DNA of 35,440 nucleotides from Deltaproteobacteria bacterium. Lineage in GTDB: Bacteria > Bdellovibrionota_C > UBA2361 > SZUA-149 > JADLFC01. The position numbers and the translations under genes are program-made. Under the pieces are notes generated by a model. It did not search any database. It saw only the letters and a list, made by a program, of their open reading frames with translations, and was not told where the DNA came from. The stretch covers positions 1 through 35,440 of the forward strand of contig JADLFC010000105.1 of NCBI GenBank assembly GCA_020845775.1, given 5' to 3'. Shown here piece after piece: positions 18,520 to 25,126 of this stretch. Each line of letters begins with the position of its first letter. Within the stretch, counting starts at the first letter, position 1.

Positions 18520-18677
18520 GGGGCATTCCACCCCACAAGGCAGGGCAAAACGCCACGCCCTACTTAGCGCAACCTATTGATCTTACAGTGCTTTTTTGCT
18601 CCGTCTAAACTTGGCACGCCTTGCAATAGATTAGTTAGTTTTAAACAAACTTACTTTAATCAATGGGAGCAAACAAA

Positions 18678-19430
18678 ATGAAAACGCGCAATTTCTTAAC
18701 AAGCGCACAATCTGCACTTGTAGTTGACCACATAGGGTATGCCGATCGCTTAGCTGAGGCCTTTCACTTTTCAAAGCAACTTCCTGAATATAGCTGTGAC
18801 GACTTTAAGAGTGCAGCATATTTTGGACTATGCGAAGCTGCCCGAAATTACGATTCCACCAAAGGCTGCGCCTTCAAGACATACGCTTACTTTCGCATTC
18901 ACGGCGCAATGTATGACATACTGAGAGACGGGAGCGAATCCAGAAGATTAGACATTCATGGCGAATCTAGTAACAAATTCAGCAACTTCGCCAAAATATC
19001 AAGACCAGCAAAGAACGACTCTCCTGAAACAACGGTAGAAGACTTTAAAAAGAAGCGCGCCCCCAAGCTAATCAAGACGTCTAAGGAGCTCGCGGAAGTC
19101 ATCAATCGCTCAGCCGATCTCAATATGACAGTCCACAATTCTAGCAAGGGTCGCGCACAAATTAGTTATCGCTGCGACTCTACTCCTGAACAACGCACTC
19201 TCGTTAAATCCTCGCAGCAACATCTTCGCCGCGTTATTTCAACACTATCGCCTCAGCAGAGGCGCGTAATTGAACTAAAGTATTTTGAGGATAAGACAAT
19301 GGATGAAATTCGCTCATACTTGGGCGCATCGTCGAGAAGCTGGATATCGCGCCTGCACTCCACTGCGATTAGCCACCTTCGCAAGAAGTTGCGAAATAGC
19401 GAGCTAGAGCACTGCGAACTATTCGCTTAA
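18678..19430 (+). CDS. FliA/sigma-28-like RNA polymerase sigma factor
   Basis: 250 residues from ATG 18678, preferred because GGGAG (18665-18669) is eight bases upstream; an ATG at 18663 would overlap it. Region 2 is SCDDFKSAAYFGLCEAARNYDSTKG followed by FKTYAYFRIHGAMYDILRD, which is the FliA/WhiG form. Region 3 is poorly conserved and contains a lysine-rich insert (about 115-150). Region 4 is TLSPQQRRVIELKYFEDKTMDEIRSYLGASSRSWISRLHSTAISHLRKKL. It sits 62 bases upstream of sctJ, so it probably controls the secretion genes, and may also read the sigma-28-like promoter before cheY. No anti-sigma factor gene is adjacent. Confidence 0.92.
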   Translation: MKTRNFLTSAQSALVVDHIGYADRLAEAFHFSKQLPEYSCDDFKSAAYFGLCEAARNYDSTKGCAFKTYAYFRIHGAMYDILRDGSESRRLDIHGESSNKFSNFAKISRPAKNDSPETTVEDFKKKRAPKLIKTSKELAEVINRSADLNMTVHNSSKGRAQISYRCDSTPEQRTLVKSSQQHLRRVISTLSPQQRRVIELKYFEDKTMDEIRSYLGASSRSWISRLHSTAISHLRKKLRNSELEHCELFA

Positions 19431-19492
19431 ATGATTCATCAACCTAGAGGAGTAAACAAACACTTCATCTACAAAGGACATTTGGACAGTCA

Positions 19493-20377
19493 ATGAAAAT
19501 ACTTACGCCAACAAAATATGCGCTGCTTTCGTTCATACTTCTACTAACTAGCTGCAAGGAGACGATCCTTCACAACCTAGACGAGCGCGAAGCAAACAAA
19601 GTAACGCTTGCGCTTGCCCAGGTCGGAATTGAGGCTAATAAACGCGTATCGCCCACAGGATGGGAAGTGGAGGTCGATAGAGCTAAATCCACTACTGCGT
19701 TACAGACAATTGAGGAGCACCGCCTCTTTAAACCATTATCCGATACGCAAACGCGACATTCTCAAAGTCTAATGCCTAGCAGAGAGGAGCGTTCGCACTT
19801 TTTCGAGCGCCAGCTTGCATCAAATCTCGAATACACCCTAGAGCGCCTGCCAAATGTATTAGAGGCACACGTGCACTTGCAGATATCTTCTGCGCCTAGA
19901 TTCTCATTGGCATCGGGGCAACGCATTCAGTCTGCTAGCGTGCTCTTAATCTCTAAGACTGATAACGCTGTAGATATAGCCAAAGTTCAGAAACTGATTT
20001 CTGGAGCCACCGGTAGCGATGATAAGTCGGTCGTGGTTCTCGTCACAACAGCCGAATCATATACTGGGTCTGCCACTTCCTCGCTCGCTCTACCACAAAC
20101 TCCCCAAGCGGGCGGCATAAAAGCCATAGCGGACAATTATTACCTTCTAATCCTTGCTGCCCTACTCCTCGTCTCTGCGGTCGGCACCGTAGCTTTCTTT
20201 CATCTTAAGAAGACAAGACGCCTAGCCGCCAGAGAATCGACCAATGGCGCGAAATCACCTCTACTACGAGAGGAGGAATTCTTTAACAGCGAGACAGCAG
20301 CCGCAATGCTTCGCCCCTACTCGCCATCGTCCAATGGTCACAATACAAACAACAACATAACAACGGGAGGATTTTAA
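19493..20377 (+). CDS. sctJ: type III secretion inner-ring lipoprotein SctJ
   Basis: 294 residues with signal peptide, lipobox LLTSC (Cys21) and the SctJ core beginning HNLDEREANKVTLALAQVGIEA. A second YscJ-type ring motif follows (LERLPNVLEAHVHLQI), and a transmembrane helix at about 215-237 leads to a basic, cytoplasmic tail of about 55 residues rich in Asn and Ser. SctJ forms the periplasmic part of the inner-membrane ring of the injectisome. Flagellar FliF is longer and lacks the lipobox, so this is a non-flagellar T3SS gene. It is the first gene of the block after the sigma factor. Confidence 0.93.
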   Translation: MKILTPTKYALLSFILLLTSCKETILHNLDEREANKVTLALAQVGIEANKRVSPTGWEVEVDRAKSTTALQTIEEHRLFKPLSDTQTRHSQSLMPSREERSHFFERQLASNLEYTLERLPNVLEAHVHLQISSAPRFSLASGQRIQSASVLLISKTDNAVDIAKVQKLISGATGSDDKSVVVLVTTAESYTGSATSSLALPQTPQAGGIKAIADNYYLLILAALLLVSAVGTVAFFHLKKTRRLAARESTNGAKSPLLREEEFFNSETAAAMLRPYSPSSNGHNTNNNITTGGF

Positions 20378-20378
20378 A

Positions 20379-20603
20379 ATGATATGCAAAACACTACAGA
20401 TAAGTTGCTCAAAACGCTGCGAACTTCTAATGGCACTCTCATATGTCCTAGCTCCAAACAGCATTCTGCCAATCGCTTACAAACTGGCCCCAAATAAGGA
20501 TAACTCGGCCGTTACTATCGCGCGCGCATTGACCAAGTTGCCGCGCTCGGCAGCAACGCGCTTAGCCAAGGCAACAATAGCAGGTGAGGATTATTTAGCG
20601 TGA
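20379..20603 (+). CDS. small T3SS-block protein of unknown function, 74 aa
   Basis: ATG at 20379 has GGGAGG eight bases upstream, and its stop overlaps the next start (GTGA at 20600-20603). That points to translation in series. The protein is mildly basic and has a short hydrophobic helix (LLMALSYVLAPNSILPIAY). It occupies the place of a SctK-like gene in some T3SS loci, but it is much shorter than SctK and I see no clear similarity. No family recognised. Confidence 0.7.
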   Translation: MICKTLQISCSKRCELLMALSYVLAPNSILPIAYKLAPNKDNSAVTIARALTKLPRSAATRLAKATIAGEDYLA

Positions 20604-21340
20604 CACATAATATTCCTGACATTAAGTCTTTAGCACCCGCTACATCGCCAATAGAGTTGTTTGAGGTCCTCACTATAGAGAAAGCCCCTAGCAAACGCCT
20701 GTCGCCCAACAAGTCCCATAATCTATTGTGCACCACCCCAGTGCAGCGCGCCATTTCTTCATTCCTAAAAAAGATTCAGCGCAGCTTGGCTAGTGACATA
20801 AATATCCAGATAGCTTTATCAATCCATAGCAACTACGCAACGCACATTTTTAGATGTGGCGATTCCGTTTCCTCTGCTAGCTCCTTCCTCCTTGTGCGCC
20901 TAAGCCTTTTTCAGGAGCCACTACTGCTTGTTCTACCAATCCCCTTAGCCCATCATTTAGCAGCACTGCTATTAACAACTGCGCCGCATCTAGCAGAGAT
21001 TAACGACATTACGGCGGAGGCTGCAATGTGCTTTATATTGGCTAAGGTAATAGCCGAAAGCGACATTCTCCAACACCAGCACCTACTTATTGATTCGAGC
21101 GCAATAGCGCACGTTAACGATATTGAGAGCACATCTGAAAATCTTACGGAACATTTATTTCTGTCGATAAACGCCATAATTGACGGTTCCAAGCAATATA
21201 CCATCGATATTGGATTGCCACCTACTGTTATAGCTCGCATTGCCGCTGCTACATCTAGCAACTGCAAGCATGACGTTTATTTAGAACTTCTATCAAAACT
21301 ATTGGCCACTAACACTCTTTTTAAGGATAACGAGCAATGA
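20600..21340 (+). CDS. probable SctQ N-terminal-half protein (split SctQ)
   Basis: 246 residues starting at GTG 20600. Its leucine-rich middle (SSFLLVRLSLFQEPLLLVLPIPLAHHLAALLL, then LAEINDITAEAAMCFILAKVI) resembles the N-terminal part of SctQ/FliM-type sorting-platform proteins, though the similarity is weak. No SPOA domain is present. The next gene, joined by an ATGA overlap, supplies a SPOA domain. This arrangement looks like a two-gene SctQ, as known for HrcQA/HrcQB of Pseudomonas syringae. It would act at the cytoplasmic face of the injectisome. The assignment is positional plus pattern-based; SctK or SctL remain possible. Confidence 0.6.
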   Translation: MTHNIPDIKSLAPATSPIELFEVLTIEKAPSKRLSPNKSHNLLCTTPVQRAISSFLKKIQRSLASDINIQIALSIHSNYATHIFRCGDSVSSASSFLLVRLSLFQEPLLLVLPIPLAHHLAALLLTTAPHLAEINDITAEAAMCFILAKVIAESDILQHQHLLIDSSAIAHVNDIESTSENLTEHLFLSINAIIDGSKQYTIDIGLPPTVIARIAAATSSNCKHDVYLELLSKLLATNTLFKDNEQ

Positions 21341-21750
21341 CCGATACACTGACACCTATTACACCAATGCCTACGCCACGCCCTACTAGACACGAATGTT
21401 CCGAGGAAGCGCCTGCGACTACTTCCCAGCAGACACTAGAGCAGTCGGTGAGCGTTTCTATAACAGTTGGTGCCTGCGAGTTGTCTATTCAAGATTTAAT
21501 CTCGCTAAGTACCGGACAGTACCTGGGATTCCAATTTAATCCCCTTAAGCAGCTTACTCTCTCGATTCAGGACGAGCCAATTGCCACCGCTCGTCTCGTT
21601 TCCCTAGCAGACGGAGCACTTGCGCTCGAAATTCTTGGGACGACGACGACTATCTCAGCGAAAAGCGAAAGCATCGTTACAAACAATGACTTTTTGGTGA
21701 ACATTGACGCGAACTGCGGCGATAATATTGGCAGGTCAACTAACATTTAG
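21337..21750 (+). CDS. SPOA-domain protein, SctQ C-terminal half / FliN-like
   Basis: 137 residues. After a Pro/Thr-rich head (1-45) lies a SPOA (SctQ/FliN) domain: VSVSITVGACELSIQDLISLSTGQYLGF and then PIATARLVSLADGALALEIL. SPOA domains form dimers in the cytoplasmic sorting platform or C-ring. It is coupled to the preceding gene by an ATGA overlap (21337-21340). Flagellar FliN is an alternative name on domain grounds, but the surrounding genes are of injectisome type. Confidence 0.82.
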   Translation: MTDTLTPITPMPTPRPTRHECSEEAPATTSQQTLEQSVSVSITVGACELSIQDLISLSTGQYLGFQFNPLKQLTLSIQDEPIATARLVSLADGALALEILGTTTTISAKSESIVTNNDFLVNIDANCGDNIGRSTNI

Positions 21751-21799
21751 TTAGTAGGAATCATTAGTTATTAGACATTAACTTTGGAGAATTAGTTTT

Positions 21800-22108
21800 A
21801 TGAGCGATTTAAAATCAACTTTTTCGATCGGCGACCTTGCTGGCGCGGCTGCCTCAGTAGCCCGCTATTTGCCGCAACCAGCGAGCGCTGGTGTGGGACT
21901 GTTTAAAGACGTCATGACATCTGCGAAGCAGTTTGCATCAGATTTTATTGGTGGCGTTGAAAACGTCCCTACAGGCGACTTTGCCGAACTAATCGAGCTA
22001 CAAATCGAGGCTCAAATGGAAATGCAGACTACCACAATGGTCTCAAACATAGAGCGCTCAAAGCACGAATCGAAAATGGCAGCTATTCGCAATATTAGGG
22101 TAGGTTAG
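21800..22108 (+). CDS. T3SS inner-rod-like protein (SctI candidate)
   Basis: 102 residues with no signal peptide, GGAG at about ten bases before the ATG. The C-terminal half is amphipathic: FAELIELQIEAQMEMQTTTMVSNIERSKHESKMAAI resembles the conserved helix of SctI inner-rod subunits (LLxLQxxxQ, then a second short helix). Size, order just before the needle candidate, and lack of other domains support it. The N-terminal glycine/alanine-rich part is less typical. I am moderately sure. Confidence 0.6.
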   Translation: MSDLKSTFSIGDLAGAAASVARYLPQPASAGVGLFKDVMTSAKQFASDFIGGVENVPTGDFAELIELQIEAQMEMQTTTMVSNIERSKHESKMAAIRNIRVG

Positions 22109-22132
22109 TTAATTTATTTGAGGTAGAAAAAA

Positions 22133-22402
22133 ATGAGTGCAATAAGTTCAAGTTCAGCGAATTCGGGGAACATAAGCAAAGCAGACGCCGCGTGGCTAAA
22201 AAATGCTGAACGCGTAATGCTCGATTTGAATTCGTCTACAGAAGACATAATGAAAGTGGCAAACGCTACTGAAGGCAAGTATGGAAATACGACGGCTTTG
22301 GGGGACCTAGTGGCCAAGAGGGCAAACCTCGCAACTATGGTAAGCAATATCATTCGCGCCTTAGCCGACACTATGCAGAACATAATTCGAAACATTCGCT
22401 AG
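22133..22402 (+). CDS. T3SS needle subunit candidate (SctF-like)
   Basis: 89 residues, no signal peptide, GAGGT upstream of the ATG. The protein has a helix-turn-helix outline: a polar N-terminus, two predicted helices joined near KYGNTTALGDLV, and a C-terminal helix ATMVSNIIRALADTMQNIIRNIR. SctF needles such as PrgI and YscF are 80-90 residues and end in a similar helix finishing in II-x-N-F/I-R. It lies next to the inner-rod candidate and directly before sctV. Size, composition and position agree. Confidence 0.7.
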   Translation: MSAISSSSANSGNISKADAAWLKNAERVMLDLNSSTEDIMKVANATEGKYGNTTALGDLVAKRANLATMVSNIIRALADTMQNIIRNIR

Positions 22403-22421
22403 TAGAGGATCGCTTCAATTT

Positions 22422-24494
22422 ATGGCCACTCTTACAACTAAAGCTGAAACAAGGGATTTACTCCTACCATTAGCAGTTGTCGCGGTTGTTGGGTTGATGA
22501 TATTGCCCTTGCCAGCCTTTCTTCTCGATACCTTGCTAATGTGCAACATTGCTTTTGCGCTATGTCTGCTCATTAGCTCGGTATACCTATCCGAGTCGGA
22601 GGAGTTTTCGTCGCTCCCTATGATGTTGCTTCTAGCTACTCTGTTTCGGCTAGGTCTAAACATTTCGACGACTCGACAGCTCCTTAGTAGCGGAGAGCCG
22701 CCCGAGATCGTTGCGGCCTTTGGCAACTTTGTCGTGGGTGGCAATTTGGCAGTGGGAGTGGTTATTTTCTCAATTATTACCGTCGTTCAGTTCCTGGTCA
22801 TTTCTAAGGGCGCTGAGCGCATTGCCGAAGTTGCAGCGCGGTTTACGCTCGATGCCATGCCGGGAAAGCAAATGGCCATCGACGCGGACGTGCGCGCGGG
22901 AATTATCGGACTAGGAGAAGCTAAGGAGAAGCGCAAGGCGCTCCATAGGGAGTCAAAGCTGTTTGGCGCTCTTGATGGCGCGATGAAGTTTGTTAAGGGA
23001 GATGCCATCGCCGGCCTGCTAATAACAATCATTAATATTACAGCTGGCGTCGTAGTTGGGGTTACCCAGCAGGGTTTAGACTTAGGAACGGCTTTTCGCA
23101 AATTTACGCTATTTACCGTGGGCGATGGTTTAGTATCCCAGGTGCCGGCCTTGCTGGTGGCGGTAGCGGCTGGAATCGTAGTCACCCGGGTGGAGAACAA
23201 AGACCGCGGTTTTATCGGCCGTGAGATGTTTGCACAACTGGGCAGAGAGCCGCAGGCGTTGGGGACTTGCGCTGGCGTGATGTTGATTCTTGCGTTCGTA
23301 CCGGGCATGCCTACAGTGCCATTTTTGGGAGCGTCGATTTTATTTTTTCTTATTGCAAAAAAGGGAGTGCTGGAGCGCGCACAGGCGGCTAAGGAAGATG
23401 TCGATTCTACCTTTCAACCAAAGATCTTTTCGCCGCTGGTCCTTAGACTTAGCCTCGATGCGGCTCGCGTGTTGCAGCAGGAGGCGCACTTGCCACAGCT
23501 GATTAAGCAACTGAGATCAAAGACATTCGATACGCGAGGCGTGACCATTAGTGCGGTTGAGTTTGACATCGACGACTCACTGGTTGACATACAGGCAAGC
23601 ATTTTCGTTCACGGAGTCGCCATGGAAAAGATCTCTTTCGCAAACGAAGGCAACTCAGGCGGCGATAAGGCTAATGGTTCAGCATCTATGAATGGCTTTA
23701 GTGCTAGAATTGCAGATTCATTGGGCCGCCTAGTGGAGAAAAACTTACTAGAGTTCATCGATGATACGCACACTAGAATATTGTTGGAGGCTCACCAGGC
23801 GACAGCTGAAGATTTGATTAATAGCGTCGTGCCTAAACTCATTAGCATTACTGGCTTAACGACACTTTTTAGGCAGCTATTACTAGAAAACGTAAGCATA
23901 AGAGATATGCGCCGAATCTTGCAGGCAATAAGCGAGTATAATCTAAACCAAAAGGCTTCTGCAACGAATCAGCCGTCGTCATCGCCACAAATGCAGCTTT
24001 CTGCATCGCTTAGTCAAAACAGTCGATTTCCACATGAAATGTGTGCCCTGTTGGCCCACGTCCGGGAGGCATTAGGTCGGACGATTTCTGCCGATATTAC
24101 ACACGGAAGCTCAACGCTTGAAGCCTTTGTATTGTCACCAGAACTCGACTACTTGTTTGCCAAGCTCAGCATTCTCAACTTGCCTCCTGAGCCGGATTTT
24201 GCTGACAGGATTACCTCAATTATTAGAGGCCTTAGAGAAAGAGATCCGGAGCTATTCGTCGTTCTCACCTCTCGCTCGGCCAGACTGCCGTTTTCTCAGC
24301 TCATGGCAGGCTACATGCCAGATATGCGCGTAATATCCGTGAGTGAGCTGTCAGCAGATATTAAACTTACGCATCCCATTTACGTTGAAGTTGAAGGCTT
24401 AAGCTTAAACGGCAAAGCCCCTAGTGAGTTTTCGGAAACTACCAACATGCCAAATGCCGCAGCTTTCTCAATGCCCTCTATGGAGACCCATTAA
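22422..24494 (+). CDS. sctV: T3SS export-gate protein SctV (FlhA/LcrD family)
   Basis: 690 residues, the normal length. The N-terminal half holds about eight membrane helices (first at 12-35) and the family signatures LFRLGLNISTTR (75-85), GNFVVGGNLAVGVVIF and RFTLDAMPGKQMAIDADVRAG (140-160), then TVGDGLVSQVPALLVAVAAGI. Residues about 330-690 are the cytoplasmic domain that forms the nonameric ring. The protein drives export-substrate docking in the inner membrane. The family includes flagellar FlhA, but SctJ, the rod and needle candidates next to it make SctV the better name. A linker rich in Ser/Gln/Asn (about 520-540) interrupts the cytoplasmic domain. Confidence 0.95.
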   Translation: MATLTTKAETRDLLLPLAVVAVVGLMILPLPAFLLDTLLMCNIAFALCLLISSVYLSESEEFSSLPMMLLLATLFRLGLNISTTRQLLSSGEPPEIVAAFGNFVVGGNLAVGVVIFSIITVVQFLVISKGAERIAEVAARFTLDAMPGKQMAIDADVRAGIIGLGEAKEKRKALHRESKLFGALDGAMKFVKGDAIAGLLITIINITAGVVVGVTQQGLDLGTAFRKFTLFTVGDGLVSQVPALLVAVAAGIVVTRVENKDRGFIGREMFAQLGREPQALGTCAGVMLILAFVPGMPTVPFLGASILFFLIAKKGVLERAQAAKEDVDSTFQPKIFSPLVLRLSLDAARVLQQEAHLPQLIKQLRSKTFDTRGVTISAVEFDIDDSLVDIQASIFVHGVAMEKISFANEGNSGGDKANGSASMNGFSARIADSLGRLVEKNLLEFIDDTHTRILLEAHQATAEDLINSVVPKLISITGLTTLFRQLLLENVSIRDMRRILQAISEYNLNQKASATNQPSSSPQMQLSASLSQNSRFPHEMCALLAHVREALGRTISADITHGSSTLEAFVLSPELDYLFAKLSILNLPPEPDFADRITSIIRGLRERDPELFVVLTSRSARLPFSQLMAGYMPDMRVISVSELSADIKLTHPIYVEVEGLSLNGKAPSEFSETTNMPNAAAFSMPSMETH

Positions 24495-24496
24495 AA

Positions 24497-25126
24497 ATGA
24501 TTGCTAAAACGTTGACTAAACTCATTTCAATCGCAATATCGGCTCAATTGCTCCTAGCAAGTGGATGTGCAACTTACGAATTCTCGCGTTCCCTATCTCC
24601 AAACCAAGAGGCCATGCTAAACCGAAAGTTAATTTCCATAATGAATCAAGTAACTCGCCATTTAGATAGTGACTCTACGAGCGCATTTGACAGTGCGCGT
24701 GCCCTGCTCAGTTTGGCCGAATCGCTTTCCCCGGACGATCCGCGGGTAGCAGATGGTTTTGGCTGCCTTGCCTGGAGAGAAAATGATTTCGATTTGGCTG
24801 AGGAGTATTTCAAGAAAGCTGTTTCACTCGATAGCAACTACGACCGAGGCTATGCTCATTTAGCACTTGTGGCGATGCAAAATGGCGATCGCGAGGCCGC
24901 GAAAAAATTGTTTGAGATTGCTCTATACCTAAATCCACTGAACTATCGAGCGCGAAATAACTTTGCTGGCCTTCTGATTGAAGGCGGCGAGACTAAGGAA
25001 GCTTACGAGGAATTGTTAAAGGCTCAGGGAAGCGGTGCAACAGACGAATGGGAAATACAAAATAACCTGCATCTCACCACGACTACTGCAAAAGAGACTC
25101 ATGTAAACGAGTTGTCGAAAGACTGA
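24497..25126 (+). CDS. TPR lipoprotein, possible T3SS pilotin/assembly factor
   Basis: 209 residues beginning two bases after the sctV stop, so coupled to it. A lipoprotein signal peptide ends LLASGC (Cys24). Residues about 75-175 form three tetratricopeptide repeats (PRVADGFGCLAWRENDFDLAEEYFKKAVSLD, then RGYAHLALVAMQNGDREAAKKLFEIALYLNP and a third). A polar tail follows. TPR lipoproteins of this kind (PilF/SctG-like) help outer-membrane secretins insert. No secretin gene is in the window, so the pilotin role is an inference from position. Confidence 0.75.
   Translation: MIAKTLTKLISIAISAQLLLASGCATYEFSRSLSPNQEAMLNRKLISIMNQVTRHLDSDSTSAFDSARALLSLAESLSPDDPRVADGFGCLAWRENDFDLAEEYFKKAVSLDSNYDRGYAHLALVAMQNGDREAAKKLFEIALYLNPLNYRARNNFAGLLIEGGETKEAYEELLKAQGSGATDEWEIQNNLHLTTTTAKETHVNELSKD

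Follow-up and report, generated by a model that had tools for sequence, protein, structure and literature searches.

A compact block of type III secretion genes

The window, by which we mean the whole stretch of DNA analysed, is an entire contig (C105, 35,440 bp); the draft genome to which it belongs has 2.57 Mb in 189 contigs and is 96% complete. Between positions 18663 and 25126 it carries a block of type III secretion system (T3SS) genes, hereafter locus A, in which a sigma factor, SctJ, a 74-aa ORF, a split SctQ, two small needle-like proteins, SctV and a TPR lipoprotein are encoded head to tail. The spacing is tight, with 4-nt overlaps at 20600 and 21337 and gaps of 1-62 nt elsewhere, and all nine ORFs listed in the initial annotation are present where it had placed them:

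18611-18624, forward strand: putative element of sigma-54-like -24/-12 appearance, TTGGCACGCCTTGC, 5' of the sigma gene
18663-19430, forward strand: T3SS-associated sigma factor, FliA/WhiG family, 255 aa (FliA_WhiG E=1e-26)
19493-20377, forward strand: sctJ, inner-membrane ring lipoprotein, 294 aa (YscJ_FliF E=7e-12; TIGR02544 E=3e-20)
20379-20603, forward strand: 74-aa ORF between sctJ and sctQ, in an SctK-like position, with homologues at the same place in relatives
20600-21340, forward strand: sctQ N-terminal half as a separate, fast-evolving ORF, 246 aa (assigned by position)
21337-21750, forward strand: sctQ C-terminal SPOA half, 137 aa (FliMN_C E=6e-6; SpaO_YscQ E=3e-6)
21800-22108, forward strand: needle-like secreted-protein candidate, 102 aa, with an invariant C-terminus ..SNIERSKHESKMAAIRNIRVG, kept in the class
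22133-22402, forward strand: SctF (needle) candidate, 89 aa (weak T3SS_needle_F match at the C-terminus, E=0.05)
22422-24494, forward strand: sctV, export-gate subunit, 690 aa (FHIPEP E=4e-161; non-flagellar side of the tree)
24497-25126, forward strand: TPR lipoprotein directly 3' of sctV, 209 aa (TPR matches)

The sigma ORF has an alternative start, with start codons at both 18663 and 18678. SctJ, the C-terminal half of SctQ and SctV score better against injectisome than against flagellar models (TIGR02544 73 bits vs FliF 13 bits; SpaO_YscQ 27 bits vs FliN 21; hrcV 494 bits vs FlhA 465), and with SctV on the injectisome side of its tree the block stands as the non-flagellar T3SS it was first taken to be. 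The opposite outcome, in which these genes would match FlhA/FliN-type families best beside a complete flagellum, was also considered at the outset; a complete flagellum does exist on other contigs (C41, C57 and C90), yet the genes of the window score as Sct, and no flagellar ring, motor or rod genes accompany the block.

The smaller ORFs are harder to name. HMM scans gave no convincing match to the 74-, 246- and 102-aa ORFs taken singly, and a database search with the 74-aa ORF returned none. Homologues of the latter were nevertheless detected by HMM at the same place in four relatives (L139, L141, L144, L148), and the TPR lipoprotein has a detectable homologue in 20 neighbourhoods. Since relatives have the same gene order and counterparts of these ORFs with about 30-50% identity, the small ORFs of locus A are real genes and not chance reading frames. 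The two sctQ ORFs of the window (20600-21750) overlap by an ATGA, as they do throughout most of the order, whereas L143 and class members have an unsplit sctQ, one longer ORF bearing the match of the C-terminal half.

The remaining core genes lie at two other loci

FHIPEP, FliP and FliI/SctN-type genes each number three in the genome, and one set of them is flagellar and complete. Locus B (C127, 3605-7906, minus strand) encodes SctU, SctT, SctS, SctR and FliO-like, SctO-like and SctI-like proteins and continues after SctU with a GAF/PAS histidine kinase, and locus C (C16, 8336-10342) encodes SctN and SctL. Among the NCBIfam models, SctN is preferred to FliI, SctL to FliH, SctR to FliP and SctU to FlhB; for SctT of locus B, FliR scores higher. 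All of the non-flagellar (NF-T3SS) core genes, SctR, S, T, U, V, N, J and Q, are thus in the genome, with J, Q and V in the window, R, S, T and U on C127, and N together with SctL on C16. That the SctN and SctL of C16, and not of C116, belong to the system of the window is a probable assignment resting on best-hit patterns and isolation. The lack of SctN, SctL and SctRSTU noted initially is therefore true of the window, a whole contig, but not of the genome, and the description of the system as incomplete fails for the gate, ATPase and stator, which two other contigs supply; it stands for SctC and a complete SctD, which are absent from the window and were not found in the genome either.

A second non-flagellar T3SS lies at C51:19902-38434 (L007, L008), where it adjoins the Tad-pilus genes CpaB, CpaF, TadB and TadC and is accompanied by a Ser/Thr kinase and FHA proteins. 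It resembles the Myxococcus Kil and T3SS* combination (PMC10433427), here in one cluster. Most class genomes outside the order carry two SctV-type genes plus FlhA, often with only one SctN besides FliI (E<=1e-60), and judging from these gene counts the two systems of such genomes may share one ATPase.

Conservation and phylogeny

In a search over 78 genomes, two or more FHIPEP genes were present in the majority of order and class members, and genomes outside the class usually had none or one. The neighbourhoods of loci A, B and C in relatives reproduce the arrangement seen in the genome of the window, so that the suggestion of a divergent or scattered system is borne out in the form of three loci kept by relatives. 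Two class members (G029, G042) have locus A broken up, with the 102-aa-like ORF still abutting SctV and sctJ located elsewhere.

The FlhA/SctV tree separates a non-flagellar side of 46 rows from a flagellar side of 63 rows with 99% support. The SctV of the window falls on the injectisome side within a clade of 28 rows (99%), apart from the SctV of Chlamydiae, Myxococcota and proteobacteria, and the C51 SctV sits on a long branch. Because the tree was built with FastTree, its exact branching order is uncertain.

Secretin, SctD and small exported proteins

None of the 46 class genomes has a protein above the TIGR02516 cut-off for SctC, and what matches there are cover mainly the common secretin domain; similarly, none of the 46 exceeds the TIGR02500 cut-off for SctD. 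Class genomes contain about two secretins each. In the genome of the window these are GspD, in its gsp operon, and PilQ, adjoining aroKB. An FHA protein encoded after the SctU C-domain of locus B (L169) passes PF16697 and ends in a membrane helix, with no periplasmic part. The HMMs could miss a secretin or SctD that has diverged, and the system would then be a complete conventional injectisome, either with its own highly diverged secretin and SctD or with a GspD or PilQ borrowed from its usual pathway. The presence of SctF-like and SctI-like subunits, and of GspD and PilQ themselves, would suit such an arrangement. We consider it unlikely, since none of the secretins in the class reaches the SctC cut-off, the genome's own two both reside within their own pathways, and the SctD-like FHA protein is without the periplasmic domain.

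The small proteins are most likely needle or rod subunits, although structure prediction is too poor to decide. Across the class, the loci that reach its position encode the 102-aa protein with an invariant C-terminal motif. Its AlphaFold2 (AF2) model, of low confidence, has a long C-terminal helix, and no match was found in PDB or by Foldseek; fold assignment of the 102- and 89-aa proteins by AF2 and Foldseek was accordingly set aside (pLDDT about 65, no meaningful match). The initial annotation of the 102-aa ORF as SctI is not supported. A better candidate on sequence grounds is the 110-aa protein encoded by the first gene of locus B (C127), which matches PF17001 at E=0.053 and has an SctI-like C-terminal motif throughout its family. 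For the 89-aa ORF, the SctF candidate, needle-family matches are weak, at E values of 0.05-1; the protein occurs in the order only, and its family profile matches PrgI/MxiH at E 0.24-1. ARM-repeat PDB matches of the same profile proved to be repeats of one 20-residue match and were discarded.

An operon-encoded sigma factor and a common promoter motif

The FliA_WhiG match of the sigma factor (94 bits) extends over positions 15-224 of 224, that is regions 2-4, and lies below the curated cut-off of 190. Its gene directly precedes sctJ, in many cases with an overlap, in each of the 32 class loci that have both genes plus upstream sequence. A tree of T3SS sigma factors (31 rows) and flagellar FliA proteins, the C90 FliA of the genome of the window among the latter, places all of the former in a group of their own. 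We can thus confirm that the block is headed by a FliA-family sigma factor of its own.

The classical sigma-28 consensus is TAAAGTTT-N11-GCCGATAA. The T3SS upstream regions carry (G/C)GAAACTTT-N13-CGATTA, a variant of sigma-28 promoters of the TAAA-N15-GCCGATAA type. A weight matrix for this motif was trained on the sigma-gene upstreams of 20 class genomes outside the order, with the threshold placed at the 99th percentile of Markov controls. When it was applied to the upstreams of locus B, which had been held out, 13 of 19 exceeded the threshold where 0.19 were expected, and none did so on the reverse strand. As the motif is present, outside the order, both 5' of the sigma gene and, in held-out sequences, 5' of locus B, control of the T3SS loci by the sigma factor encoded in the operon is plausible.

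The order has its own form of the motif, distinct from that in the remaining class members. Here 7 of 16 upstreams of locus B or C have [GCT][CG]AACA-N15-17-CGA[ATG], compared with a mean of 0.14 in controls and with 5 of 297 other upstreams; this result is descriptive, since the expression was chosen after viewing the same sequences, and that from the class is the cleaner test. In one genome (G005), loci B and C are preceded by 28-base sequences that closely resemble each other. In the genome of the window, locus A is without the motif of loci B and C. A candidate pattern there, GAAC-N17/18-CGATAA, was barely above chance (24 sites vs 16 in the reversed control), too weak to be used alone. 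We also observed in this genome a family of near-identical GAAC..TGC.AAATTTTTCGATAA sequences (C1:94, C12:11347, C32:12969, C156:40, C175:158; L247, L248, L252, L268, L270), several of them near contig ends, which are possibly repeats or promoters.

A different sequence, TTGGCAC followed by a short spacer and TTGC, precedes the sigma gene in 10 of 10 loci of the order, in none of 21 in the rest of the class and in none of 661 other ORF upstreams. We call it sigma-54-like because, although it is kept in the order, its GG..GC spacing is 1-2 bp (2 bp in the window) too short for a sigma-54 site.

Flagellar FliA might instead drive the loci, leaving the encoded sigma factor with some other role. 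Both sigma factors are encoded in the genome, and AAACTTT-N13-CGATWA has sigma-28-like spacing when set beside the classical consensus. It is nonetheless quite unlikely that FliA is the regulator, given that only 1 of 32 flagellin upstreams has the T3SS motif, that in the class the upstream of the encoded sigma gene itself bears it, and that the T3SS sigma factors form a clade of their own with a motif that varies between the order and the remaining class members.

The motif may also serve more than the T3SS sigma factor, because in two class members it occurs at other genes and in a repeat. In G042 (L279, L280 and other loci), a dispersed non-coding repeat (CTTAGGAAACTTTT..CCCCGATAAGCCATCGTGCTTT..CTTGTACCAGA) includes a T3SS-like promoter motif, and since this repeat accounts for part of the enrichment (18 sites vs 0 in the control) we did not retain the sites as a regulon or effector list. 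In G033 (L295, L297, L299, L292, L303), T3SS-like motifs lie shortly 5' of REP-type transposases, dprA and recA; these sites, which also precede toxin-antitoxin and DNA-uptake genes, were likewise rejected as an effector list.

That the block represents the surviving fragments of a decaying T3SS is very improbable: SctC and a full SctD are missing, the loci are dispersed and several proteins fall under their family cut-offs, but all remaining core genes are intact, recur in relatives in the same order at the identities given above, and keep their common upstream motifs. Locus A is no relic; it belongs to a non-flagellar T3SS that is dispersed over the genome and kept throughout the class of this organism.

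SctU is encoded in two pieces

In all 12 genomes checked (our own and 11 others), the SctU of locus B is only 256-282 aa long and breaks off near '..V(R/K)xAKVxIV', just where an NPTH autocleavage motif would be expected. Neither any of these 12 ORFs nor the separate C-domain ORFs contain NPTH, which the genome's flagellar FlhB does have. A separate ORF of 81-120 aa for the SctU C-domain lies 3' of the kinase gene in 10 of the 11 loci that reach past the kinase, the sole exception being G006 (L163). The two pieces divide PF01312 between them, SctU covering positions 2-256 and the separate ORF 257-332, and the profile of the C-domain family matches solved post-cleavage FlhB chains (3b1s_B E=2e-19). 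In our genome (L020; C127, 432-4435) a gene for a 954-aa GAF/PAS histidine kinase divides SctU from its C-domain, and the layout is the same in relatives. Since SctU itself is naturally without the domain, the separate gene is the only source of it found in the locus. Among named genomes of other phyla, 50 of 50 FlhB/SctU ORFs, most of them flagellar, retain the length of the C-domain. In a side observation, the SctU of the C51 cluster (275 aa) likewise is without C-domain and NPTH.

Taken together, the data probably describe a class-wide non-flagellar T3SS in three loci, with a motif read by the operon-encoded sigma factor, no dedicated secretin and SctU in two pieces. A sensor kinase or another input would turn on the sigma operon, and the sigma factor would recognise the common motif and switch on loci B and C, so that separated loci would be co-expressed. 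In the order, another regulator may start the sigma gene at TTGGCAC..TTGC, possibly by way of the NtrB-type kinase encoded in locus B. The machine would then export small helical needle- or rod-like subunits through the inner-membrane gate without a dedicated secretin, as Myxococcus T3SS* may do. SctU would act as two polypeptides from the outset, and its switch would in that case be independent of autocleavage. We lean slightly towards the more specific proposal that SctU has been fixed as two polypeptides at the autocleavage site, with the kinase gene between them, and that a sigma-28 paralogue with its own promoter code coordinates the three loci.

Comparison with known systems

HrpL and BtrS are ECF sigma factors dedicated to a T3SS. 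The present sigma factor is like them in being encoded with a T3SS that it is thought to control, but it belongs to the FliA/WhiG family and is associated with a sigma-28-like motif; to our knowledge, the dedicated T3SS sigma factors are all of the ECF type. Chlamydiae also possess a sigma-28, and a chlamydial secretin, CdsC, exists. The T3SS genes of Chlamydiales are similarly scattered over several loci (PMC3459982), whereas their SctV belongs to another clade and the L103 SctU has its full length.

The 'needleless' T3SS* of Myxococcus xanthus has, as here, the NF-T3SS core genes without a secretin (PMC10433427, PMC3459982), and this Myxococcus group is still classed as NF-T3SS (PMC3459982). 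A FliO-like protein, such as that of locus B, has likewise been reported in myxococcotal NF-T3SS (PMC12248157). The two systems differ in that T3SS* forms one cluster and ours three loci, and in that ours has its own FliA-family sigma factor, a histidine kinase in the gate operon, a split SctU and needle-like proteins beside sctV. Its SctV also falls in a separate clade, and both of the Archangium SctU examined are of full length. The present system is a further, deep branch of secretin-less T3SS, conserved throughout the class and associated with a FliA-family sigma factor, and it suggests a way for a scattered secretion system to remain co-regulated.

HP1575 (FlhX) is described as a stand-alone FlhB C-domain besides an intact FlhB, and the C-domain of Xanthomonas HrcU as functional in trans (PMC3040844, citing Wand 2006). 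These cases share with ours a stand-alone C-domain able to work uncut from a parent protein, but their natural form is full-length FlhB or HrcU, whereas SctU is here naturally without its C-domain. In the literature searched we found no natural system that has a split SctU/FlhB as its sole form. A naturally split SctU in a system that apparently never cleaves makes the debate over cleavage event versus cleavage product testable; if our reading is correct, it would be a natural test of the idea that what counts is the cleaved form of SctU/FlhB and not the act of cleavage. The genome of the window also encodes a second stand-alone FlhB C-domain, FlhX-like and 131 aa long, on C90 (L006, 7259-7654), near the flagellar flhB and flhA genes and beside a full-length FlhB.
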